Shown: positions 7,842-18,681 of the stretch, piece after piece
How the letters are laid out: each line of letters starts with the position of its first letter
Position numbering within the stretch: the first letter of the stretch is position 1
Assembly (NCBI GenBank): GCA_902775555.1
Contig: CACYMQ010000019.1
Location: 1 to 40,575, forward strand
Source of the DNA: an uncultured Lachnospiraceae bacterium
Lineage (GTDB): Bacteria; Bacillota; Clostridia; Lachnospirales; Lachnospiraceae
DNA length: 40,575 nt
Direction: 5' to 3'
Made by a program: the position numbers and the translations under genes
Notes under the pieces: generated by a model
Seen by the model: only the letters and a program-made list of their open reading frames with translations
Databases searched by the model: none
Told to the model about the DNA's origin: nothing

Positions 7842-8048
7842 TCACGATGCTTCGCCTGCCACAGTTTCTTCCTCATCGGTCCCCAGCAGTATCACGCCAT
7901 CATAAAGCCCAACTAAGCCTGGGATCCCCGTCCAGAAAAACAGCAGGCAGAGCAGCCCCTGTTTCCACTTTCCAAGATAGAATTTATGTACTCCGATGGT
8001 TCCGAGCAGAAGCGCAAGAATTCCTGCTGCCGTTCGATTTTTCTTCAT
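7842..8048 (-). CDS. TM2 domain membrane protein
   Basis: A 68-residue protein of the TM2 family, function unknown. Two hydrophobic helices (about residues 7-20 and 31-55) flank the conserved turn GVHKFYLGKWKQG, and the second helix ends in the typical GLYDGVILL. The short C-terminus is acidic. The start follows AGAGG; it is the first gene after the minus-strand promoter at 8100-8108. The family is clear from the G-x-H-x-F-Y-L-G signature, but its role here is not known. Confidence 0.88.
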   Translation of the reverse strand: MKKNRTAAGILALLLGTIGVHKFYLGKWKQGLLCLLFFWTGIPGLVGLYDGVILLGTDEEETVAGEAS

Positions 8049-8099
8049 TTTTGATACCTCTTTGGTTTAAGTCTTACCCAAAAGTTCATAGTCGGTTAG

Positions 8100-8108
8100 A
8101 TTATAGCA
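8100..8108 (-). promoter_or_regulatory. Extended -10 promoter for the TM2-Asp23-nusB run
   Basis: On the minus strand the sequence reads TGCTATAAT, a perfect -10 box with the TGn extension, about 52 bases before the TM2 start codon. A -35 at 17-base spacing is poor (TTTCAT), as expected for extended -10 promoters. Confidence 0.7.
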
Positions 8109-8204
8109 TACTCCTGACCGAAATGAAAGATATTCCATTGAATCAGACAGGCATCCCTCTTTGTCACACAGTATCCGCATTTTCCTTTGGGGATCTTTGG
8201 GGAT

Positions 8205-8228
8205 ACATTTCATCTTCCATGAAAATGT
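8205..8228. promoter_or_regulatory. Imperfect inverted repeat near the yfhO -35 region
   Basis: ACATTTCAT and ATGAAAATGT face each other across CTTCC, with one unpaired base. The element ends about 20 bases before the yfhO -10 box, a plausible operator site. No regulator is identified. Confidence 0.3.
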
Positions 8229-8247
8229 AGAAAAAGCTATGTTAATA

Positions 8248-8256
8248 TGATATAAT
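8248..8256 (+). promoter_or_regulatory. Extended -10 promoter for the double YfhO gene
   Basis: TGATATAAT is a perfect extended -10 box, 36 bases upstream of the ATG at 8293. The -35 region is weak. Together with the box at 8100-8108 it defines a divergent promoter region in the 244 bases between the TM2 gene and this gene, which otherwise hold no gene. Confidence 0.7.
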
Positions 8257-8292
8257 GAATTGTTAATTTTGCTTTATTTTTGGGAGGAGATC

Positions 8293-11200
8293 ATGGCTAA
8301 GTCAAGCACCGACTCAAAGAAAAAAAACACGGGCACTACGGCAGGCTCCGGCAGTAAGTCTGCGACAAAAAAGACCATAGACATAAAGGATCGATCGAAA
8401 GCAAAAAAAGCTTCCGAAGCAAAGAAAGCCGCCGACTTTCATCCGAAGAAGTCCAACCGCTCTCTTTATGTACTGGCATTCCTGATCCCGGTGATCGCCG
8501 TGCTGCTTGGCATGCTGGCCGGTTCCTTTGCCCCCTTCGGAGGCAAGGATGTAATGACCGCCGGCGGGCACTCACAGCATCTCACCTATTACTACGAACT
8601 CTATGACCGGGTTCATGAAGGGAAAGGACTTCTCTACAGTCTCACCACCGGCTCCGGTTATGATTTTACTACGATCTTCACCTATTATCTGTCCGATCCC
8701 CTGAATCTGATCATCCTGATCTTCCCGCGGACCGCCATTCTTGCTGTCTTCAATCTGCTCTATGCACTGAAGATCGGTCTGGCTGGTCTCTTCTTCGCAT
8801 TTTTCCTGAACCATCGGAAAGAACGTATCCTGCAGCGGAAGCTGGCCATGGAAGAGTCACGCAGCGATGCGATCCGGGCCATCAGCGAACGCCGCGCAGC
8901 CAGGAAGGCAAGAGCAAAGGAAAAAGCAGAAAAAAGCGGTAAGACAGCAAAGAAAGATCTTGTCATCGGCGGAGCAGAAGCTCCATCCACCGGAATCGGT
9001 GCGCTTCTTGCAAAATTCGACTTTCCGATCCTTGGTTTTTCCATCGCCTATGCCCTTTCCGCATATATGCTGGGTCAGGGACTGAATGTAGGGAATCTCT
9101 CTGTGGTTGCCATCTTCCCCATCCTGCTCATGGCACTGGATGAACTGATGGAGAACGGAAAATGGAGACTATACGCAGCTCTGATGACTGCCTGCATCTT
9201 CTGCAGTTTTCAGATGGCGATCGTGGTCTTCCTCTTCTCTGTCCTCTATGCCATCCTTTTCGATCATAAAGATCTTCACCATGCGATCCGAAATCTTCTC
9301 CTGAAGCTTCTCTCGGATCTTATGGCATTCGGTGCGGGAGCTGTGATCGTACTGAACTGCCTCGGAAGCACCACCTTCCGGGATCAGGTATCCGTCAAAT
9401 TCCCCTATGGCGGTGTCGTTACCACATTTTTTGATATCATCAAGAATCTCCTGCCGACCACACGGACCTCTGCCACCAGCGCATACAGCTATGGCATCGA
9501 TATCTTCTGCGGAATACTGGCCGTCTTTCTTGTGATACTTTATGTTCTGAACCCGAACATCAAGCTTTCCAGACGTCTTCGTCAGACCGGCATCCTGGCC
9601 GCACTGGGCACCGGCCTCATGCTGGTGACCCCCAACTATCTCTTCAACGGTTTCTCCCACCGGGAGATGACCGTCTGCCTGTTCGGTTTCCTCTTTATCG
9701 CACAGCTTCTGTCCATGGCTTATGAAGTCTTTCAGAATATCGAACATACACCGGTATGGCAGCTCCATGCCGCGCTTGTCGTGCTTCTGGTTCTGATCCC
9801 CGTAAGTTTCTTCCTTTGCGACAATTACAATTCCTTCAGCCCGTTCCTGTATGCCATGGAATTCCTTATGGGATATTATTTCCTGACCTTGCTCTACCGG
9901 AGCGATAATCTTGGAAAATGGCTGCTGGCTCTGCTTATCCCTGTCATCCTGATCCTTGAAGTCGGAATGACCTATGTGGACAACCTGCGTCTTGCCGGAT
10001 CCGAATCAAAGGCGTATTCCTCCACTATGGACAGCCAATACTACGAAGTCTCCCGACTGCTCCATCAGGCTATGCCTGAGGCTCATATCAAGATCTATGA
10101 CCCGGAAACTAATCAGGATACAGTAGTGGCCTACACGCTCCTGGACTATCACTTCATCATCACCTCGAAGGACGTAAAAAATGTGGATCCCACTCTCCGG
10201 CACATGACGGATGTAGGGGATGTCTCCATCTATGAAAATGAATACTCCGCAAACGGCGTATTTATTCCGAAATCCGTGGAGGATTGGGCTTACCGTGAAG
10301 AAGCTCCATTTACCACAACCAATGACCTGATACTGGATGTGCTTGATTCCACGCCGGTTTTCTATACTGCTTTGGGAGAACCCAGTAATGGTTTTCTTCC
10401 CAAATTTGACGAAAATGGTGTCGAGGATGTAAGACACCTGGATTATATGTTCAACTTTGTCCCCGAAGGAGATGGTCCTCTCTACAGCTCCCTGTACAGC
10501 ATCCGTTTCCACGGAGATGTAAAGAAAGGGGAACTTGCCACTTTCCTTCATACTTTTTCCAGTTGGGAAGAAACGCCTACGACCCCGCGATCCGAATATG
10601 TCTTTTTCCATAAAGAAGGATTTGAAGCCTTCTGTAAGAACCTTCTGATCCCCGCATCAAAGATCCGCTCCGAAGGCTCGGTTTCCTATAGCATCGACGC
10701 CCCGGAGGATGGGTATCTCCTGCTTCCCTATAGCACGCTGTCCGGTTGGAAGATCAGTTCTTCTACCAATGCTGCCGGAACCATGGATAACTTCCTTGGC
10801 CAGGCTCTTATGGTTCCTGTCTCTTCCGGGCAGAATACCATCGAGCTGGAGTACACTCCTTCACTCTTCTACGTAGGAATACTGATCAGTCTTGCATGTC
10901 TTGCGATCCTTATCTTCCTTGCAGTGAAGGATCAGCTGAAGATCCGTGCAACTGCCGGCGGTATTCATTCCCTGTCCGATTGGATCAGGGAAAACTATGT
11001 ATATGTCATCACGATTTCCGTGATGGCACTCATATACATCCTGATGCTGATGTATACCAGCAGTATCCCCTTCGGTAATAAATCTGTGCTGATCGGTGAC
11101 GGCTACCTGCAAGGGTATTATGGAAATGCCGGTATCATGAAGGCACTGAAAAATGGGACCTATGGACCTTTAGACTGGAACACTGGAATCGCTATTGACC

Positions 11201-13590
11201 AATACAACAGTTTCCTAAGCTATCTGCTAACACCATGGACTTTACTGAAATATCGAATCATGCCGGAATCCATGATCCTTTTTGATATGGCGTTCCGTTA
11301 TGGACTATGCTTCATATTTCCATCGATCACGATTCTCCTTTATCTGACACACCGCCATGGTCGAAAGATGAATAAAAAAGACTGGCGTCTCATTGTCATC
11401 GGACTTTCCTATGGACTTTCCACCTACGGCATCAGCTACTTTGTATATGCAAACTTCGACTTCCTGTCCTATGTTCCTCTGATCCTGCTCGGTTTGGAAC
11501 GCCTGGTATATGACAAAAAACCTGCCTTATATATCATCCTGCTATTTATCATGATGGGGGATGCATACTACGGTTTCATGCTTTGTGAATTCCTGTTTCT
11601 CTACTTCTTTACACTCAAATTCGACAGCTTCAAGGATTTCATACAAAAGGGACTTCGATTTGCAGCCGCTTCAATCGCATCTGCAGGTCTTGCATGTTTC
11701 CGCCTGATCCCGTATTTTATGCGAACTCTGGACTCTCCCTATAAAGCCGGTGATTCCATCTCTCCGCTTTCAAAATCAGGAGGAAATTATCTCTCCGTGA
11801 TCTCCGACTATATGAGTCACCGGGAAGCCGTGATCACAACCACCGACGATTTCCGTGTCAACTATTACATTGGGATCCTTGCGCTACTTGTGATCCCTCT
11901 GTATCTCCTGAATAAAAAGGTTGATCTTTCGGTACGGATCCGAAGAACCGTGCTTCTTTCCTTATACTTTATTGCATTCGGAAGCAGCATACTGAACTAT
12001 GTCTTCCACGGATTCCATTATCAGACACAGGTTCCGAATCGGTTCAGTGCTTTCTTCATCGTGCTTCTTGTCATCATGTTTGCAGAGTGCATTCTGTCCT
12101 GGCAGGATTATAAGCGAAAGACCTTCTGTCTCAGCATCACCATTCCTGCCGTGATCCTGGGAATCCTTTGGACCATTGCACTTCTCTCCGACTTAAGAGA
12201 GCCGGTAAAGACCACTGCATACGTTATGAGTATGATCATTTTAGGCATCTATATTATACTGGCGTGTCTCCAGTTCCTGAAAAAACATAAGAATGCCCTG
12301 CGAAATGCCATGCTTGTGGTACTTATCAGCGAAATGATACTGAACGCGGTATATATCTTCCCAAATGCGATTGGAGCCACAGTCCCCGATGACCGGGATC
12401 AGAACAGTATCAACACCTTGTCTGCCCGCCATCCTGAGATGCAGGAGCCCTTCACTGCTACGGAATTCATTGCCGACTATTACAATATTGCCGAATCCAC
12501 CGATATGATCTCCGACAGCTTCTTCTCCTCCTACTCTACAAACGGGCATATGACGTTGTTTACCAAATGGAATCTTCTGACCTCCGGAAATTCTACCGCA
12601 TATCTCACCGGAAATCCTCTGGCAGATATGATGATGCATATCCGGTATAATATATCCAATAATGCGGACGACAGTTCCTGGTCGCATTACCCGGTCATCG
12701 ATCAGTCCGGCTGTATGGTCCTTCATGAGAATCCGAACTTCCTTCCACTGGGAATCTATTTTGCGGATAATGAGGAGCTTGCTGCTTGGGCGAAGACTGA
12801 GTATTCCGACTATAATGAAGACCAGCATGGCGGAAATGCTTTTGAGCTTCAGAATGCTTTCTCCCATGCCATGGGCTGTGGCGATCTGTATCATATCATC
12901 GAGCCGGAAGCTGACGGATCAAAGATCAACGAAGAAAATGAATCGGAGATCACCTATATCACTGCAGATCCCTCCGAGTATTTAGAGGGAAAACAGACCG
13001 AGATTCCTACAAAGATCCATCTTGCAAAGGATGTGGAAGGCGACGTCTACTTCTCCTACTTCAATACCATCTCATATGCAGGCACAACAACAGCCGGAGA
13101 GGCCGATGTCTTTGATATGACCATGTATCTTCCTCTCGGACGAAAAGATTATTACATGCGGATCGCAACCTTTGACGAGGAGGAAATGGAGAAGCTCCAT
13201 GAGAAGCTGGCCGCATCCACCATGCAGGATATAGAGATCGGTTTCAATTCCATTACGGGGAAGATCACCACCCCCGATTCCGGAACCGTTTACCTCTCTC
13301 TTCCATATATGTCCGGATGGACCTATTACGTCGACGGCTCAAAGGTCGAAGGTTCGGAGTATCTTGGCGGAGTCGGTATCCCTGTAACTGCCGGCGATCA
13401 TACCATCAAAGTGATCTACACCCCACGTGGTGCATGGCTCGGATTTGCAGTTACCGGTGCCACGATCCTGCTTCTCATCGCTTATGTACTCATTCGCAGG
13501 AAGACAGCTAAGAGAAACCCCTCTCCGACTACCGAAACCGACGGAGGGGATTCCTCCGAAACCGATTCCGAAAAAACAGTTGAAATTTAA
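8293..13590 (+). CDS. Tandem double YfhO-family membrane protein (GT-C-like)
   Basis: A 1765-residue multi-pass membrane protein made of two YfhO modules. YfhO proteins are GT-C-fold relatives linked to glycosylation of surface polymers; a single module is about 850-900 residues. Module 1 spans about 57-885 and module 2 about 896-1740. Each has a membrane N-terminal part (PFGGKDVM and PFGNKSVL), a C-terminal extracytoplasmic beta region (LLLPYSTLSGWKI and LSLPYMSGWTYYV) and a final helix after a YTP motif. D936 in IGDGYLQ of module 2 fits the catalytic Asp of the first outer loop; module 1 has G91 there (TAGGHSQ). A Lys-rich cytoplasmic leader (1-55), a charged loop (about 173-235) and an acidic C-terminus are extra. 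The ATG at 8293 follows GGGAGGAGA; a TTG at 8260 lies too close to the -10 box. It stands alone between its promoter and efp. Confidence 0.85.
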   Translation: MAKSSTDSKKKNTGTTAGSGSKSATKKTIDIKDRSKAKKASEAKKAADFHPKKSNRSLYVLAFLIPVIAVLLGMLAGSFAPFGGKDVMTAGGHSQHLTYYYELYDRVHEGKGLLYSLTTGSGYDFTTIFTYYLSDPLNLIILIFPRTAILAVFNLLYALKIGLAGLFFAFFLNHRKERILQRKLAMEESRSDAIRAISERRAARKARAKEKAEKSGKTAKKDLVIGGAEAPSTGIGALLAKFDFPILGFSIAYALSAYMLGQGLNVGNLSVVAIFPILLMALDELMENGKWRLYAALMTACIFCSFQMAIVVFLFSVLYAILFDHKDLHHAIRNLLLKLLSDLMAFGAGAVIVLNCLGSTTFRDQVSVKFPYGGVVTTFFDIIKNLLPTTRTSATSAYSYGIDIFCGILAVFLVILYVLNPNIKLSRRLRQTGILAALGTGLMLVTPNYLFNGFSHREMTVCLFGFLFIAQLLSMAYEVFQNIEHTPVWQLHAALVVLLVLIPVSFFLCDNYNSFSPFLYAMEFLMGYYFLTLLYRSDNLGKWLLALLIPVILILEVGMTYVDNLRLAGSESKAYSSTMDSQYYEVSRLLHQAMPEAHIKIYDPETNQDTVVAYTLLDYHFIITSKDVKNVDPTLRHMTDVGDVSIYENEYSANGVFIPKSVEDWAYREEAPFTTTNDLILDVLDSTPVFYTALGEPSNGFLPKFDENGVEDVRHLDYMFNFVPEGDGPLYSSLYSIRFHGDVKKGELATFLHTFSSWEETPTTPRSEYVFFHKEGFEAFCKNLLIPASKIRSEGSVSYSIDAPEDGYLLLPYSTLSGWKISSSTNAAGTMDNFLGQALMVPVSSGQNTIELEYTPSLFYVGILISLACLAILIFLAVKDQLKIRATAGGIHSLSDWIRENYVYVITISVMALIYILMLMYTSSIPFGNKSVLIGDGYLQGYYGNAGIMKALKNGTYGPLDWNTGIAIDQYNSFLSYLLTPWTLLKYRIMPESMILFDMAFRYGLCFIFPSITILLYLTHRHGRKMNKKDWRLIVIGLSYGLSTYGISYFVYANFDFLSYVPLILLGLERLVYDKKPALYIILLFIMMGDAYYGFMLCEFLFLYFFTLKFDSFKDFIQKGLRFAAASIASAGLACFRLIPYFMRTLDSPYKAGDSISPLSKSGGNYLSVISDYMSHREAVITTTDDFRVNYYIGILALLVIPLYLLNKKVDLSVRIRRTVLLSLYFIAFGSSILNYVFHGFHYQTQVPNRFSAFFIVLLVIMFAECILSWQDYKRKTFCLSITIPAVILGILWTIALLSDLREPVKTTAYVMSMIILGIYIILACLQFLKKHKNALRNAMLVVLISEMILNAVYIFPNAIGATVPDDRDQNSINTLSARHPEMQEPFTATEFIADYYNIAESTDMISDSFFSSYSTNGHMTLFTKWNLLTSGNSTAYLTGNPLADMMMHIRYNISNNADDSSWSHYPVIDQSGCMVLHENPNFLPLGIYFADNEELAAWAKTEYSDYNEDQHGGNAFELQNAFSHAMGCGDLYHIIEPEADGSKINEENESEITYITADPSEYLEGKQTEIPTKIHLAKDVEGDVYFSYFNTISYAGTTTAGEADVFDMTMYLPLGRKDYYMRIATFDEEEMEKLHEKLAASTMQDIEIGFNSITGKITTPDSGTVYLSLPYMSGWTYYVDGSKVEGSEYLGGVGIPVTAGDHTIKVIYTPRGAWLGFAVTGATILLLIAYVLIRRKTAKRNPSPTTETDGGDSSETDSEKTVEI

Positions 13591-13608
13591 ATCGGAATAT
13601 ATTAAAAT
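13580..13608 (+). promoter_or_regulatory. Promoter of efp
   Basis: TTGAAA at 13580-13585 and TAAAAT at 13603-13608 are 17 bases apart, each matching 5 of 6 consensus positions of the main sigma factor. The -35 box lies inside the last codons of the YfhO gene, so efp has its own transcription start about 90 bases before its ATG. Confidence 0.7.
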
Positions 13609-13665
13609 ATTAACGATTTTGTGCAGTTATATGCTGTACGCAGACCATACTCAAAACAAATGAAT

Positions 13666-13685
13666 GCCGCTGCTGTTTCAGCGGC
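13666..13685 (+). promoter_or_regulatory. GC hairpin in the efp leader
   Basis: GCCGCTG pairs with CAGCGGC around a 6-base loop. It ends 5 bases before the AAAGGGAGG ribosome site of efp. No U-run follows, so it is not an ordinary terminator; it may modulate translation or stabilise the efp mRNA. Confidence 0.55.
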
Positions 13686-13705
13686 CATAAAGGGAGGATT
13701 TTATT

Positions 13706-14260
13706 ATGACAGCAGGCGAGATCAGAAACGGTATCACCGTTGAGATTGAAGGAAATGTATTCCAGGTCATCGAGTTCATGCACGTAAAGCCCGGTAAAGG
13801 TGCTGCTTTCGTTCGTGCAAAGCTTAAGAATATCATCAGCGGCGGTGTGGTTGAGCGTACCTTCCGTCCTACCGAGAAGCTGGAAACTGCTCATATCGAC
13901 AAGAAGGATATGCAGTATTCCTACAAGGATGGTGAACTCTACTACTTCATGGATTCCGAAACCTTTGAGATGACACCCGTAAATGCTTCTCTCATCGCAG
14001 ATTCCATGAAGTTCGTAAAAGAGAATGAGAACTGCAAGCTCAGCTTCTATAAGGGTTCCGTATTCAGCTGCGAGCCTCCGATCCAGGTTACTCTTGAAGT
14101 AACAGACTGCGAACCGGGTGTAAAGGGCAATACAGCTACAAATGCTACTAAGCCCTGTACTGTTGAGACCGGAGCAACCTTGAATATCCCGCTCTTTGTC
14201 AACACAGGTGATATGATCACCATCGATACCAGAACCGGTGAGTATACCGGCCGTGCATAA
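13706..14260 (+). CDS. efp: Translation elongation factor P
   Basis: Relieves ribosome stalling at polyproline stretches by binding next to the P-site tRNA. 184 residues with three OB-like beta barrels: KOW-like N-terminal domain ([20 protein letters not shown]), EF-P central domain and C-terminal domain ending [13 protein letters not shown]. The conserved loop is [10 protein letters not shown] with Lys31 at the tip, the residue modified in many bacteria. The start follows AAAGGGAGG. It has its own promoter and a terminator 20 bases downstream, so it is likely monocistronic. Confidence 0.97.
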
Positions 14261-14279: not shown

Positions 14280-14330
14280 AAAAGAAGGGTTCAAACATAC
14301 TGCCTTGCAGATATTTGAGCCCTTCTTTTT
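14280..14330. terminator. Bidirectional terminator between efp and the phosphonate operon
   Basis: AAAGAAGGG-T-TCAAA pairs with TTTGA-G-CCCTTCTTT around a loop holding a nested TGC/GCA pairing, followed by TTTTT on the plus strand and TTTT on the minus strand. It ends efp on one side and the decarboxylase gene (stop at 14355) on the other. Confidence 0.88.
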
Positions 14331-14354: not shown

Positions 14355-15476
14355 TCATAAGCAGGACAAATAATCCATAAAGCCCTTCTTATTCTCAAGT
14401 GCCGTTGTGGTGGGACGGCCGAGATCCTCTCTTGCTCCAATGGAACAAAGCACTTCGATCAGCGAAAGATCTCCATAGTTCCTGGCATCCTCCAACGCCT
14501 GATCCAACTCCTCAAAGGAGGCAACCCTTGTTGCTTTCGGATACCCGCACGCCTTTGCAATCTCCACCAGATCCAACTCTCCTGCCACCGTCGGCATCCC
14601 GCCTACCGTTTCATGCGCTCCGTTATTGATCACGATATGGACCAGGTTCTTCGGACGAGTGGCACCAATGACTGCCATGGCACCCATATGCATTAATACT
14701 GCACCATCCCCGTCAATGCACCAGATCCGTTGACCGGGTTTATTGATCGCGATCCCCAAAGCAATAGAGGAACTATGGCCCATGGATCCCACCGTCAGGA
14801 AATCATATTTATGGCTCTGCCCGTTCCCCTCGCGGATCTCAAAGAGTTCCCTGCTGGCCTTTCCCGTAGTACTGACCACCGGATCCTCTCCGGTTGCTGC
14901 TGCGATATGCCTTATGATCTCCTCACGTACCATGGTATTCTCATTATGGTAGTTTACCTTCGGAGCCTCAGTCAAAGCACCCTTTCGTATCACGAAAGCA
15001 ACATCCTTCCCCTCCGCCAGGAGATTTCGATATTCCTTCATTTTTTCCTGCAGTTCCTCTTCTGTCGTATCCTGTCCGACTACATAAGCTGCGATATCCA
15101 TATCCTCCAGGAGTTTCAAAGTAACCTCTCCCTGATAGATATGCTGCGGTTCATCATGGATTCCCGGCTCACCTCGCCAGCCGATGATGAAAATAACCGG
15201 AATGGCATACACCTTATCATTCAGAAGGCTGGCGACCGGATTAATGATATTTCCTTCACCGGAATTCTGCATATATACGACAGGAACCTTCCCTGTCGCC
15301 AGATGATACCCGGCCGCAAGTGCCGTACAGTTTCCTTCATTTGCAGCTATGATATGATGCTTCGGATCGATCCCATAATGATCCATCAGATAATTGCATA
15401 ATGGTTTCAACTGAGAGTCCGGAACACCGGTATAAAAGTCGGAATCAATGATCTCTACGAATCTGTCTATTTTCAT
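14355..15476 (-). CDS. aepY: Phosphonopyruvate decarboxylase
   Basis: Thiamine diphosphate enzyme that converts phosphonopyruvate to phosphonoacetaldehyde, pulling the unfavourable PEP mutase reaction forward. 373 residues. Visible are FYTGVPDSQLKPL (14-26), the catalytic Glu47 in AANEGNCTALAAGYH, the family motif WRGEPGIHDEPQH (100-112) and the TPP-binding GDG with NNGAHETVGG. Sulfopyruvate decarboxylase is a close relative, but the PEP mutase gene two positions upstream settles the substrate. The start follows GGGATGAATT. It is the last gene of the three-gene operon, 9 bases after the dehydrogenase gene. Confidence 0.93.
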   Translation of the reverse strand: MKIDRFVEIIDSDFYTGVPDSQLKPLCNYLMDHYGIDPKHHIIAANEGNCTALAAGYHLATGKVPVVYMQNSGEGNIINPVASLLNDKVYAIPVIFIIGWRGEPGIHDEPQHIYQGEVTLKLLEDMDIAAYVVGQDTTEEELQEKMKEYRNLLAEGKDVAFVIRKGALTEAPKVNYHNENTMVREEIIRHIAAATGEDPVVSTTGKASRELFEIREGNGQSHKYDFLTVGSMGHSSSIALGIAINKPGQRIWCIDGDGAVLMHMGAMAVIGATRPKNLVHIVINNGAHETVGGMPTVAGELDLVEIAKACGYPKATRVASFEELDQALEDARNYGDLSLIEVLCSIGAREDLGRPTTTALENKKGFMDYLSCL

Positions 15477-15485
15477 AATTCATCC

Positions 15486-16595
15486 CTATTTCGTTCTTAA
15501 AATACAATGATACAGTCCATCGATGGTCTCTTCATCCAATGGGATCGGATGATTCTTCAGACGGACCGGGTTCACGCTTTGCTTCAATATACCGAACTGT
15601 TCCTCCGTGGCACAGGGTATCTCCAGATCCAATCGGCGGAATAATTCTTCAAATCGTGCAGCAGCAGCCTCGGGAGTATCCTCTCCCATGGCACCAGCCA
15701 GCTCGATCAGAGTCTTTTTCAGATATTCTGCTCCCCTTGGATCCCCGCACATTTCCGTATGCTCCGTCATCCACGGGAACAGAACACGATTACACAGCGC
15801 CACTGCATGTCCATGAGGTATACCGAAGAGTCCGGTGAGTTTATAGCTCATGGCATGTCCTGCCGTCGTCTGTGTGATATTGATCGCCTTTCCTGCTGTA
15901 TTTGCAGCCATCAGCATATCTGCATTTGCTGTATCCTCATTTGCAAGATATCCGTCCATGTGATCCAGGATCTGTCGTATAGCTTTTTTACTGTACTGTT
16001 TGCTTTCCTCCGTACTGTTTACCGACCAAAAGGATTCGATCGCATGGCAGAGCGCATCCAGCATCGTACATTTCTTCTGATATAGCGGTAAGGTTTTTAA
16101 GACGCTGCTGTCCATAAGTATCGTATCCGGTATCGCATACACACTTGTAACGGACTGCTTGACCCCCTCATAATAGATCACCGCATAACGCGTAGCCTCC
16201 GCACCTGTTCCGGCCGTTGTCGGCATAGCAAGGAACGGGATCCCCGTATCCCCGGATTCCTGTTGCAGAAAAGCACCCGCAGCTCCATTTCCCGGCATCC
16301 CGGCATATAGCCGGATACACTTTGCCACATCAATGGCGGAGCCTCCTCCCACTGCGATCAGCGCATCGCACCCTTCGTCCCGGAAGGTTTTTACGCCCTC
16401 CACTACACTGTTGTAATCCGGATTCGGCTGAAAATCGGTAAAACGAACCACCTTGTCCTTATATGTCTCAAAGAAGGCATTGATCCGAAAGAACCCGATG
16501 GATCCGTCGCAGACCAGAAGGATCTTATGATTAGGATCCATCCATTTTTTTAGTTGTTGATAGTCTCTGTCGTTCTGTATGATCGTCTGTTCCAT
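15486..16595 (-). CDS. Iron-dependent alcohol dehydrogenase, probable phosphonoacetaldehyde reductase
   Basis: Group III (Fe-type) alcohol dehydrogenase, 369 residues. GGGSAIDVAK (83-92) binds NAD(P), and probable metal ligands are D181 and H185 (LDALCHAIE), H248 and H262 (GIPHGH). By family alone the substrate is open. Between PEP mutase and phosphonopyruvate decarboxylase it most likely reduces phosphonoacetaldehyde to 2-hydroxyethylphosphonate, as known reductases of this family do in phosphonate clusters. No aminotransferase is nearby, so aminoethylphosphonate is not the expected product. Its ribosome site GAGG lies in the last codons of the upstream gene, with a 2-base gap. Confidence 0.88.
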   Translation of the reverse strand: MEQTIIQNDRDYQQLKKWMDPNHKILLVCDGSIGFFRINAFFETYKDKVVRFTDFQPNPDYNSVVEGVKTFRDEGCDALIAVGGGSAIDVAKCIRLYAGMPGNGAAGAFLQQESGDTGIPFLAMPTTAGTGAEATRYAVIYYEGVKQSVTSVYAIPDTILMDSSVLKTLPLYQKKCTMLDALCHAIESFWSVNSTEESKQYSKKAIRQILDHMDGYLANEDTANADMLMAANTAGKAINITQTTAGHAMSYKLTGLFGIPHGHAVALCNRVLFPWMTEHTEMCGDPRGAEYLKKTLIELAGAMGEDTPEAAAARFEELFRRLDLEIPCATEEQFGILKQSVNPVRLKNHPIPLDEETIDGLYHCILRTK

Positions 16596-16597
16596 AT

Positions 16598-18607
16598 TTA
16601 TACCTCTTCCGGGATCAGACGGATGATCTCATTAAAGGGCATCAGCATCTTATCACATTCTTCTGCTCTATGATTCTCAAGGATCATCTTCGCTGCATTC
16701 TGGATTGCCGGAACAGTAGCTCTCATCAACTGATTCGCATAAATGATGATGTTGGCCCCCTGTTCCTTCCACTCCTCCTCCGTAACCGAATTAAAGGATG
16801 TGGGAACGAGCACGATGGGGGTACTTTGGTCTTTTTCACGGAAGCCTTTTATGAATTCCCGGATCTCGGACGGATCCTTCTTCCGGCTGTGGATCATAAT
16901 GGCGTCTGCACCAGCTTCCACAAATGCAAAGGCTCTTGTCAGAGCATCCTCCATCCCCTGTTCAAGGATCAGAGACTCGATCCTGGCACAGATCATGAAT
17001 TCCTTCGTTCGCTGGGCTTTCTTTCCTGCCCGGATCTTCTCACTGAAATTCTCAATGGAATCCTGTGTCTGCTGAACCTCTGTTCCAAAGAGACTGTTCT
17101 TTTTCAATCCGGTCTTATCCTCAATGATGACCATGGACACACCCAGGCGCTCCAGCGATCTGACCGTATAAACGAAATGCTCTGTCTTTCCGCCCGTATC
17201 CCCGTCAAAGATTATAGGCTTTGTGGTGACTTCCGTAATATCCTCGATCGTCCGGAAACGGGAGGTCATATCTACCAGTTCGATATCCGGTTTGCCCTTT
17301 GCCGTACTGTCACAAAGTGAAGAAACCCACATCGCATCAAACTGATGTGCCCCGCCATCCTGGTGAACGATGGTATTTTCCACAATCAGACCTGTCAGTC
17401 CGTCATGCGCCTCCATGGCCGTTACGAGGCCTTTCATTTCCAATACCTTTCTCAACCGACCACGTCGGATGTCCGGCATAGCCAGATCGGAACGGGTCCG
17501 GTTCTCTATATCCCTGTACTTGTCATCTACACTATAGGGATACTCCACCAGTCTCCCGCCATAAGTGGAAAGGACTGAGATCACCTCGTCCCGGATGGGT
17601 TTTTGGAAACCGGTGCACCAGTCATCCCCATGAACTACGATGGAGGGTTGATATCTGAGCAGATTCTCTTTATAGCTGAGGGTGCTTTGATCAACCACCT
17701 TATAAACACCCGCAATATTCTCAAACATCACCTTTCTTTCGGAAGCAGGGACAAGGGGAAACCTCTTATAGGAGCATACCGCTTCGTCCGACAGAACACC
17801 AATGATCAGTCTTCCGAGTTTTTGTGCTTTTTTTATGATCGCTATATGTCCGCCATGGATGATATCCGTAGAAAAGCACATATAAACTGTACGAGCTTCG
17901 ATTTCCTTTAACCGGGCAGAAACAACCGCCAGATCTTCAGGATTATCGATCTCCGCGCACAACATATCCCGGACATCGAGGGCGTGGATATCTGCAGCAC
18001 CTTTCAGCTCATTTAACGCATTTTCCGCATAGACCTTCCGGTTGTCCTTTTCACAGAACTCTATGATCTTATCCAGCCAAAGACGCCAATCCTCTTTTTG
18101 CAGCTTATACAGCGGCTGCGCTTCCATAGCGTCCTCAAATATGTCCACTCCCACAGCCAGGATCTTATCATTCTCCACCTTCGCCTTAAAGTCCTTCTCC
18201 GGAAGAGGCTCCGTAGACGAAACCGTCATACAGGAATGGTCATAGGATACAACCTTGTCAAATACCTCGCCTTCAAAAACCAGATCACCATGCATGAGCA
18301 GGATATCGTCATCCAGGTAGTCCCGGGCACAGTAGATGCTGTAGATATAATTTGTTGAATCATATAGGGGATTCTTTACGAATGTATAATTCAGCGGATA
18401 ATCCAGGGAATTACAGTAATCGATCAGAACCTGATCATAATAACCGGTTGTGACCACAACGTCGGTGATCCCCGACTGACAGATCAGATGCAATTGTCTG
18501 GAAAGAATCGTTTCCCGGGGACTGATCTCTGTCATACACTTGGGATGATCCGATGTAAGAACTCCCATGCGTGAACCGAGCCCCGAGTTCAGGATCAATG
18601 CTTTCAT
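16598..18607 (-). CDS. aepX: Trifunctional-type fusion: LicC-like nucleotidyltransferase, cytidylyltransferase-like domain, PEP mutase
   Basis: 669 residues in three domains. Residues 1-235 are a LicC/PntC-type nucleotidyltransferase (LNSGLGSRMG 6-15, HPKCMTEI, HGDLV 106-110). Residues 239-365 are a cytidylyltransferase-like fold (STDIIHGGH 246-254, PASERKVMFENI), but the usual C-terminal ISSTxI signature is not evident; DDKYRDIENRTRSD stands near its place. Residues 385-669 are PEP mutase, with DGDTGGKTEHF (468-478) and the diagnostic EDKTGLKKNS (496-505), making the C-P bond of phosphonopyruvate from PEP. A two-domain form (cytidylyltransferase plus mutase) is common; the extra LicC-like domain suggests that one polypeptide both starts the pathway and makes a CMP-phosphonate for transfer to a surface polymer. 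The start follows GAGGAGGATTCT; first gene of the operon. Confidence 0.92.
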   Translation of the reverse strand: MKALILNSGLGSRMGVLTSDHPKCMTEISPRETILSRQLHLICQSGITDVVVTTGYYDQVLIDYCNSLDYPLNYTFVKNPLYDSTNYIYSIYCARDYLDDDILLMHGDLVFEGEVFDKVVSYDHSCMTVSSTEPLPEKDFKAKVENDKILAVGVDIFEDAMEAQPLYKLQKEDWRLWLDKIIEFCEKDNRKVYAENALNELKGAADIHALDVRDMLCAEIDNPEDLAVVSARLKEIEARTVYMCFSTDIIHGGHIAIIKKAQKLGRLIIGVLSDEAVCSYKRFPLVPASERKVMFENIAGVYKVVDQSTLSYKENLLRYQPSIVVHGDDWCTGFQKPIRDEVISVLSTYGGRLVEYPYSVDDKYRDIENRTRSDLAMPDIRRGRLRKVLEMKGLVTAMEAHDGLTGLIVENTIVHQDGGAHQFDAMWVSSLCDSTAKGKPDIELVDMTSRFRTIEDITEVTTKPIIFDGDTGGKTEHFVYTVRSLERLGVSMVIIEDKTGLKKNSLFGTEVQQTQDSIENFSEKIRAGKKAQRTKEFMICARIESLILEQGMEDALTRAFAFVEAGADAIMIHSRKKDPSEIREFIKGFREKDQSTPIVLVPTSFNSVTEEEWKEQGANIIIYANQLMRATVPAIQNAAKMILENHRAEECDKMLMPFNEIIRLIPEEV

Positions 18608-18652
18608 AGAATCCTCCTCGAATAGTCTTTTTCTTTACATTCCATAAGTTAA

Positions 18653-18681
18653 ACAATACTCAAAAAAAAAGATACTGTCAA
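18653..18681 (-). promoter_or_regulatory. Promoter of the phosphonate operon
   Basis: On the minus strand TTGACA (18681-18676) and TATTGT (18658-18653) are 17 bases apart: a perfect -35 and a 4-of-6 -10. The spacer contains a run of nine T. It lies 46 bases before the start codon at 18607, and just after the terminator of the pilus operon. Confidence 0.82.

Follow-up and report, generated by a model that had tools for sequence, protein, structure and literature searches.

A Lachnospiraceae operon with a triple-fusion enzyme, read as a probable 2-hydroxyethylphosphonate tailoring cassette

Contig CACYMQ010000019.1 of a gut-type, uncultured Lachnospiraceae bacterium (assembly GCA_902775555.1; 40,575 nucleotides, hereafter the window) carries a compact three-gene operon that we read, with a probability of about 0.77, as a phosphonyl-tailoring cassette with a 2-hydroxyethylphosphonate (HEP) head group. 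Its first gene encodes a single protein made of a MobA/LicC-like nucleotidyltransferase domain (NTP; PF12804), a Fom1-like cytidylyltransferase domain (CYT; PF01467) and a phosphoenolpyruvate (PEP) mutase domain, and it is followed by genes for an iron (Fe)-type alcohol dehydrogenase (ADH) and a phosphonopyruvate decarboxylase. In the proposed pathway, the PEP mutase would convert PEP to phosphonopyruvate, the decarboxylase would pull this product on to phosphonoacetaldehyde, and the dehydrogenase would reduce the latter to HEP. One of the cytidylyltransferase-type domains of the fusion would then combine HEP with cytidine triphosphate (CTP) to give HEP-cytidine monophosphate (HEP-CMP), from which a LicD-type transferase encoded elsewhere in the genome would move HEP onto a surface glycan. 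The triple-fusion architecture has already been published, and the operon is a variant of the phosphonyl-tailoring pathway.

Results

The operon encodes three intact enzymes and two cytidylyltransferase-type domains

The preliminary description of this DNA had placed a PEP mutase, a decarboxylase and an Fe-type dehydrogenase with intact metal ligands in one operon, and both the open reading frames (ORFs) and the model scores bear this out. The PEP mutase domain scores 400.2 bits against a TIGR02320 cut-off of 319.55 and carries the EDKXXXXXNS motif as EDKTGLKKNS, while the decarboxylase exceeds the TIGR03297 cut-off (468.6 versus 312.5) and the ADH that of PF00465 (113.7 versus 31.3). All four metal ligands of the ADH are present (D180, H184, H247 and H261), in what we take to be the Asp-His-His-His pattern of type III Fe-containing ADHs. 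Among 84 ADHs of the fetched loci, these ligands are conserved in 84, 79, 84 and 84 proteins, respectively; the five departures, of which L089 is listed, have Gln in place of His184, and the ADH of Segatella copri (L189:18146-19264) also has Gln at this position. Given its 48% identity to an S. copri protein annotated as phosphonoacetaldehyde reductase, the window ADH is probably an enzyme of this kind.

The CTP activation that had been described as built in was rightly recognized yet understated, as the three-domain protein of the first gene has cytidylyltransferase-type domains of two different kinds rather than a single one. The NTP domain has the PntC-type GXG(T/S)R...PK loop (GLGSRMGVLTSDHPK). 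According to the main text of Rice et al. 2019 (PMC6697681), a water molecule, Glu196 and Glu104 of Treponema denticola PntC are positioned at the amine of 2-aminoethylphosphonate (AEP). The alignment of the NTP domain to this protein, which covers the Glu104 site and stops short of Glu196, places His106 where PntC has Glu104. For the CYT domain, the closest solved structure is the Fom1 cytidylyltransferase (CyTase; 5x3d), and the HxGH motif is present. We think that the NTP domain, in which His106 takes the place of the Glu of AEP-type enzymes, would be the HEP-specific activator, and the CYT domain, which is intact and has the Fom1 residues, may carry out the same activation or a second one.

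The fusion and the dehydrogenase are conserved partners

Relatives were collected in two sets. Among 397 family genomes (the own genome, G000, included), 69 match the fusion at an E value of 1e-20, many of them through the first domain only; the resulting family set consists of 47 stretches that surround a PEP mutase match and one with a match to NTP only, with fragments in G226 (C43) and G294 (C20) excluded. The NTP domain was also used to scan GTDB contigs; at least 553 relatives were returned, the best 80 of which were taken as loci. Both sets together hold 76 unique triple fusions (15 + 61; four duplicates removed). Homologous frames were picked first for the neighbor and residue counts, so that genes under longer antisense frames are included, whereas the PEP mutase tree (106 rows), the ADH ligand count and the by-locus table derive from earlier gene picks that miss such genes.

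An ADH lies within three genes on the same strand in 67 of the 76 unique triple fusions, and the exact order fusion-ADH-decarboxylase is found in 57. The window fusion shares 73-85% full-length identity with 34 aligned relatives, which were taken from 49 listed full-length ones. In one relative (L052; G046 C1:256000-275000), two fusion-ADH-decarboxylase sets stand in opposite orientation within 19 kb, and one of the decarboxylases is split into two frames.

No phosphonate transaminase was found in the genome

The assembly to which the window belongs, as contig C19, comprises 96 contigs (3.0 Mb), is 99.49% complete and encodes a single PEP mutase that exceeds the cut-off. The commonest phosphonate is AEP, which would be the end product here if a transaminase encoded elsewhere completed the pathway and the dehydrogenase served another role. 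Some relatives speak for such a route: two-domain CYT-PEP mutase fusions of the family set (n = 31) have a transaminase within six genes in 17 cases, an ADH in 3 and neither in 11, and the triple fusion of L098 stands beside a PhnW-like gene. In the genome itself, however, no protein passes the cut-off of the PhnW/AepZ transaminase model (a model that 0 of 14 control genomes pass either, so that it has no positive control). The AEP-type transaminase of a relative, used as a query, yielded nothing beyond partial matches (37 bits at best); with the same query, the PhnW-like gene of L098, although more distant, is detected at an E value of 2e-60. With His rather than Glu at the AEP-amine position as well, we regard AEP as a very unlikely end product. 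The absence of an aminotransferase noted in the preliminary description was upheld at the scale of the genome, where a phosphonate transaminase, which would have spoken against HEP, was looked for and not found. Together with the ADH beside most triple fusions and the reductase annotation in S. copri, this supports HEP rather than AEP as the predicted product.

A transaminase-model match in a 629-amino-acid (aa) frame on C9 had raised the suspicion of a PntC-AEPT fusion; this candidate was dropped, as its N-terminus is cysteine desulfurase-like by eye and the transaminase match is partial. The carbon-phosphorus lyase PhnJ was not found in the genome either (E. coli control positive).

Residues of both cytidylyltransferase-type domains tend to follow the partner enzyme

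The position of His106 was scored in 118 unique NTP domains, with partners counted within four genes. Domains accompanied by an ADH only (n = 80) have His in 78 cases, Glu in 1 and Ser in 1, while those accompanied by an AEP-type transaminase only (n = 9) have 8 Glu and 1 Cys. Six domains from three dual operons, with both partners, comprise 3 His and 3 Glu, and His is found in the single domain with an ADH and a PhnW-like gene and in the single one with a PhnW-like gene only (L098). At CYT position 281, Lys is present in 75/75 ADH-linked triple or ADH-fused domains, whereas the transaminase-linked CYT-PEP mutase fusions (n = 18) have 17 Asn and 1 Trp; ADH-linked CYT-PEP mutase fusions have 3 Lys and 2 Asn, and L153 combines an ADH and His with Asn at this position. 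Gln335 (Fom1 Gln121) is found in 75/75 ADH-linked domains versus 0/18 of the transaminase-linked ones listed, and Asn315 (Fom1 Asn101) in 70/75 versus 1/18. Asp329 splits less cleanly (69/75 versus 1/18), being replaced by Asn in 5 of 8 ADH-fused domains. The HxGH motif is kept in both classes (75/75 ADH-linked triple or ADH-fused domains and 18/18 transaminase-linked ones). These patterns suggest that the residue marks distinguish HEP-type from AEP-type head groups.

Some gene fusions tie the presumed activating domains to the dehydrogenase. In 8 of the 80 loci (L103, L110, L132, L134, L136, L142, L143 and L144), NTP and CYT are fused to the ADH and not to PEP mutase, and L089 has an NTP-ADH fusion in a stretch that contains no CYT domain. 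Three loci (L132, L136 and L142, at about 8000-13770) carry an NTP-CYT-ADH fusion together with a second, Glu-type NTP gene, a transaminase and a CYT-PEP mutase fusion; no decarboxylase was recognized in these stretches. Both branches being present, one operon appears to make both head groups, apparently two phosphonates from one PEP mutase. Position 281 in these dual operons is Lys in the CYT domain joined to the ADH and Asn in the one joined to PEP mutase.

The conservation of the CYT domain is also what would be expected if this domain alone activated HEP and the MobA-like domain served another substrate, such as a sugar 1-phosphate: HxGH, Lys281 and Gln335 are invariant and Asn315 is nearly so among the 75 ADH-linked fusions, and sugar nucleotidyltransferases belong to the MobA-like family too. 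We find this division of labor doubtful, since the His/Glu position of the MobA-like domain tracks the head group, the L089 protein joins this domain straight to the ADH, and the S. copri relative described below has kept the MobA-like motifs and lost HxGH. Among the relatives, one further His-type MobA-like domain (L090:6976-8829) shares its frame with a membrane domain that is rhomboid-like by eye.

A related cassette lies in a polysaccharide cluster of Segatella copri

On the plasmid record NZ_CP085933.1 of S. copri DSM 18205 (L189:15001-17007), a triple fusion is 72% identical to that of the window over its length, and the decarboxylase is 50% identical to its counterpart. The homologues of all three genes are present (aepX, aepY and phosphonoacetaldehyde reductase) in a polysaccharide cluster that also encodes a CDP-glycerol glycerophosphotransferase family protein, an O-antigen polymerase, a flippase and glycosyltransferases. 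The cluster differs from the window in its order, fusion-decarboxylase-dehydrogenase, and in having an adjoining TagF-like transferase. An identity of 72% across phyla suggests that the cassette was transferred between them. The CYT domain of this protein has NSAH aligned to the HGGH of the window, so that HxGH is lost, whereas both the motifs and His106 are preserved in the NTP domain; this hints that the NTP domain is the indispensable activator.

Carriage by plasmids or phages was considered and set aside. In all, 142 plasmid records match the query, only one of them over at least 80% of the query length, and no relative of the HEP-type domain was found in viral contigs; two unverified fecal "Bacteriophage sp." records with a PEP mutase (MT837901.1, L190; MT836947.1, L191) hold bacterial phosphonate genes and are probably mislabeled. 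In L070 (10550-12439) and one further cluster, AEP-type phosphonate genes are accompanied by what looks, by eye, like a fusion of a YidC-like part and a TagF-like glycerophosphotransferase.

A LicD protein encoded elsewhere is the likeliest transferase

The transferase and acceptor had been described as missing from the window, and the search of the genome agrees with this: three LicD genes were found (on C1, C45 and C39), none beside the operon, and no PF04464 transferase was found in the genome (three controls positive). The LicD protein of C1 (G000 C1:183224-184141) shares 56% identity across 306 positions with the LicD encoded directly upstream of the L170 fusion in an Oscillospiraceae metagenome-assembled genome, whereas its best-scoring match in the other 396 family genomes is 43% identical. 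The LicD proteins adjoining triple fusions in G332 and G029 are among its six best matches outside its own genome. We take the C1 protein as the likeliest transferase, which is a lead rather than proof. An attempt to single out the HEP transferase by comparison with the sister species failed, since none of the three LicD proteins is closely matched there.

Several observations weigh against the proposed pathway

The points that follow count against the reading given above. Regarding the dehydrogenase, the window ADH passes no NCBIfam cut-off (TIGR03405, 144.6 versus 423.7), and its substrate assignment therefore rests on context. Nine of the 76 triple fusions have no ADH within three genes; three of them end at a contig edge (L105, L120 and L122, with the start of an ADH at the edge in L120), and the other six (L057, L092, L098, L109, L124 and L128) have at least 2 kb downstream, in which tblastn found no ADH. 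In L098, a PhnW-like transaminase directly follows a triple fusion with a His-type domain, with no ADH in view, and L108 carries both a PhnW-like gene and an ADH, in the order triple fusion, PhnW-like gene, amino-acid permease-like gene, ADH and decarboxylase. A short-chain dehydrogenase, recognized by eye, follows the triple fusion of L109 (10031-10756) at the usual place of the Fe-ADH, which it possibly replaces.

As for the residue marks, NTP domains with neither partner nearby (n = 21) have 14 His, 4 Glu and 3 Ser, and position 281 is Lys in 3, Gly in 2 and Arg in 1 of six NTP-CYT frames that lack PEP mutase. Most of the sequences with His entered the sample through their similarity to the window. 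Along the PEP mutase tree there are just three changes of the ADH/transaminase label, so that independent support for the marks is thin; in independent pairs on the tree, His follows the label in 2/2 (p = 0.5) and Lys in 1/2 (p = 1), which is not statistical proof.

Concerning the transferase, the LicD proteins of G042, G083 and G068, genomes without a fusion match, outscore those of G332 and G029 as matches of the C1 protein, and a LicD-like gene lies within three genes of only 23 of the 67 ADH-linked fusions. In the sister species, the best match of any of the three LicD proteins is 31% identical over 270 positions, and the AMP-ligase encoded beside the C1 gene has no match there (a search with no positive control). 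Finally, no reported activity was seen for any of these proteins.

The operon is accessory and shares its terminator

The features of the operon are collected in Table 1. Of the promoter and terminator that the preliminary description had assigned to it, the former stands as a consensus match: the site fits the position of the first gene, but such matches are about as frequent in the whole region (11) as in shuffled sequences (mean 9.1, standard deviation 2.9). The hairpin is real, but it lies just beyond the operon and is common to the convergent elongation factor P (EF-P) gene; the operon therefore has no terminator of its own.

Table 1. Coordinates of the operon and its features in the window
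Feature	Position	Strand	Basis
Three-gene operon	14355..18681	minus	three ORFs, intergenic gaps 2 bp and 9 bp
Triple fusion of 669 aa (nucleotidyltransferase, cytidylyltransferase, PEP mutase)	16598..18607	minus	ORF; PF12804, PF01467, PF13714; TIGR02320
Fe-type ADH, 369 aa, probable phosphonoacetaldehyde reductase	15486..16595	minus	PF00465; annotation of S. copri homologue
Phosphonopyruvate decarboxylase, 373 aa	14355..15476	minus	TIGR03297
Promoter-like site TTGACA-17-TATTGT	18653..18681	minus	consensus match only, 10/12
Bidirectional terminator hairpin, common to operon and EF-P gene	14280..14329	both	z -7.45 (minus), -5.77 (plus)
NTP domain, aa 1-235, GLGSR...PK loop	17903..18607	minus	PDB 1jyk, E 3.7e-9; 6pd1 (PntC), E 2e-6
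Codon of His106; equivalent residue in T. denticola PntC is Glu104, at AEP amine	18290..18292	minus	alignment
CYT domain, about aa 236-365	17513..17902	minus	Fom1 CyTase structure 5x3d, E 3e-36
HGGH, the HxGH motif of the CYT domain	17846..17857	minus	conserved in relatives
Codon of Lys281 (Fom1 Lys67)	17765..17767	minus	Asn in 17/18 transaminase-linked relatives
PEP mutase domain, aa 385-668	16604..17455	minus	TIGR02320; EDKTGLKKNS at 17093-17122

In the sister species G160, the sole genome of the same genus in the sample, the flanking genes have the same order and the operon is absent; about 0.2 kb separates the EF-P gene from the large pilus-side gene at its site. Being accessory in this way, and with no recognized transferase gene adjoining, the operon might be a decayed or silent acquisition without a present role. 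We hold this to be extremely unlikely, as the three genes are intact, their motifs are conserved and the fusion retains the high identity to its 34 relatives given above. On the other side of the operon, positions 18750-39444 hold a type IV pilus operon with several proteins bearing an N-methylation motif and proteins of 1085 and 1989 aa. A link to these pilus genes was set aside, since the sister species has relatives of the operon-proximal pilus part without the phosphonate genes.

Discussion

One of the closest parallels to these three genes is the early fosfomycin pathway, whose first steps are catalyzed by the same triad of PEP mutase, decarboxylase (Fom2) and Fe-ADH (FomC). The Fom1/Fom2/FomC set of Streptomyces likewise has a CyTase-PEP mutase fusion, with HEP and CMP-HEP as intermediates. 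This likeness, and the fact that Fom1 is the closest solved structure to the CYT domain, would also suit a pathway in which HEP is an intermediate toward a small molecule, as in the fosfomycin, phosphinothricin or methylphosphonate pathways. Such a fate is unlikely in our view. Among the 26 scanned window proteins, to which the search was limited, there was no radical SAM methylase, HEP dioxygenase or later fosfomycin enzyme (Fom3, epoxidase), and related loci hold polysaccharide genes and LicD or TagF-like transferases. Unlike the fosfomycin enzyme, the window fusion has an extra N-terminal MobA-like domain, and its relatives show a surface-glycan context.

The phosphonoglycans of Glycomyces and Stackebrandtia, the subject of a 2014 report by Yu, reportedly contain HEP; they resemble the proposed product in bearing a phosphonate on an exopolysaccharide, to judge from the title, and differ in coming from Actinobacteria. 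A passage of PMC9381506 mentions HEP on marine polysaccharides, and one of PMC8976061 describes HEP synthesis by a PEP mutase, a decarboxylase and an Fe-ADH for AlpH, AlpI and AlpJ. In the main text of Rice et al. 2019 (PMC6697681), triple fusions are already counted (42 among 1485 Ppm proteins), the Fom1 CyTase is reported to make CMP-HEP, the two characterized PntCs prefer AEP, and PntC enzymes are expected to activate varied phosphonates; no word beginning with "dehydrogenase" occurs there. The window protein has the three-domain architecture of these triple Ppm fusions, a LicC-like domain and, as candidates, LicD-like partners, and is unlike T. denticola PntC (Glu104) in having His106 and a dehydrogenase partner. 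A link of triple fusions to HEP, or the His mark, was not reported in the literature searched, which covered few subscription journals.

Going further, the MobA-like domain may represent a so far undescribed specificity class within the PntC family, namely CTP:HEP cytidylyltransferases that carry His instead of the Glu that binds the amine. It would belong to an exchangeable HEP cassette that has spread among Clostridia of gut and rumen and has reached Bacteroidota; L132, L136 and L142 would then make HEP and AEP in parallel, with a single PEP mutase for both and a separate activating enzyme for each. We give this wider proposal even odds. Of what the analysis adds to the preliminary description, we value most the proposed residue marks, the fusions to the ADH, the operons with both branches and the relative in S. 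copri, each of them drawn from sequence comparison. Because a named strain, S. copri DSM 18205, has a related set in a polysaccharide cluster, the prediction is testable. The locus and its relatives offer a concrete candidate for a second substrate of PntC enzymes, a one-residue mark and natural fusions tying activation to the reductase; if the proposal is true, decorators with HEP and with AEP would become sortable from genome sequence.

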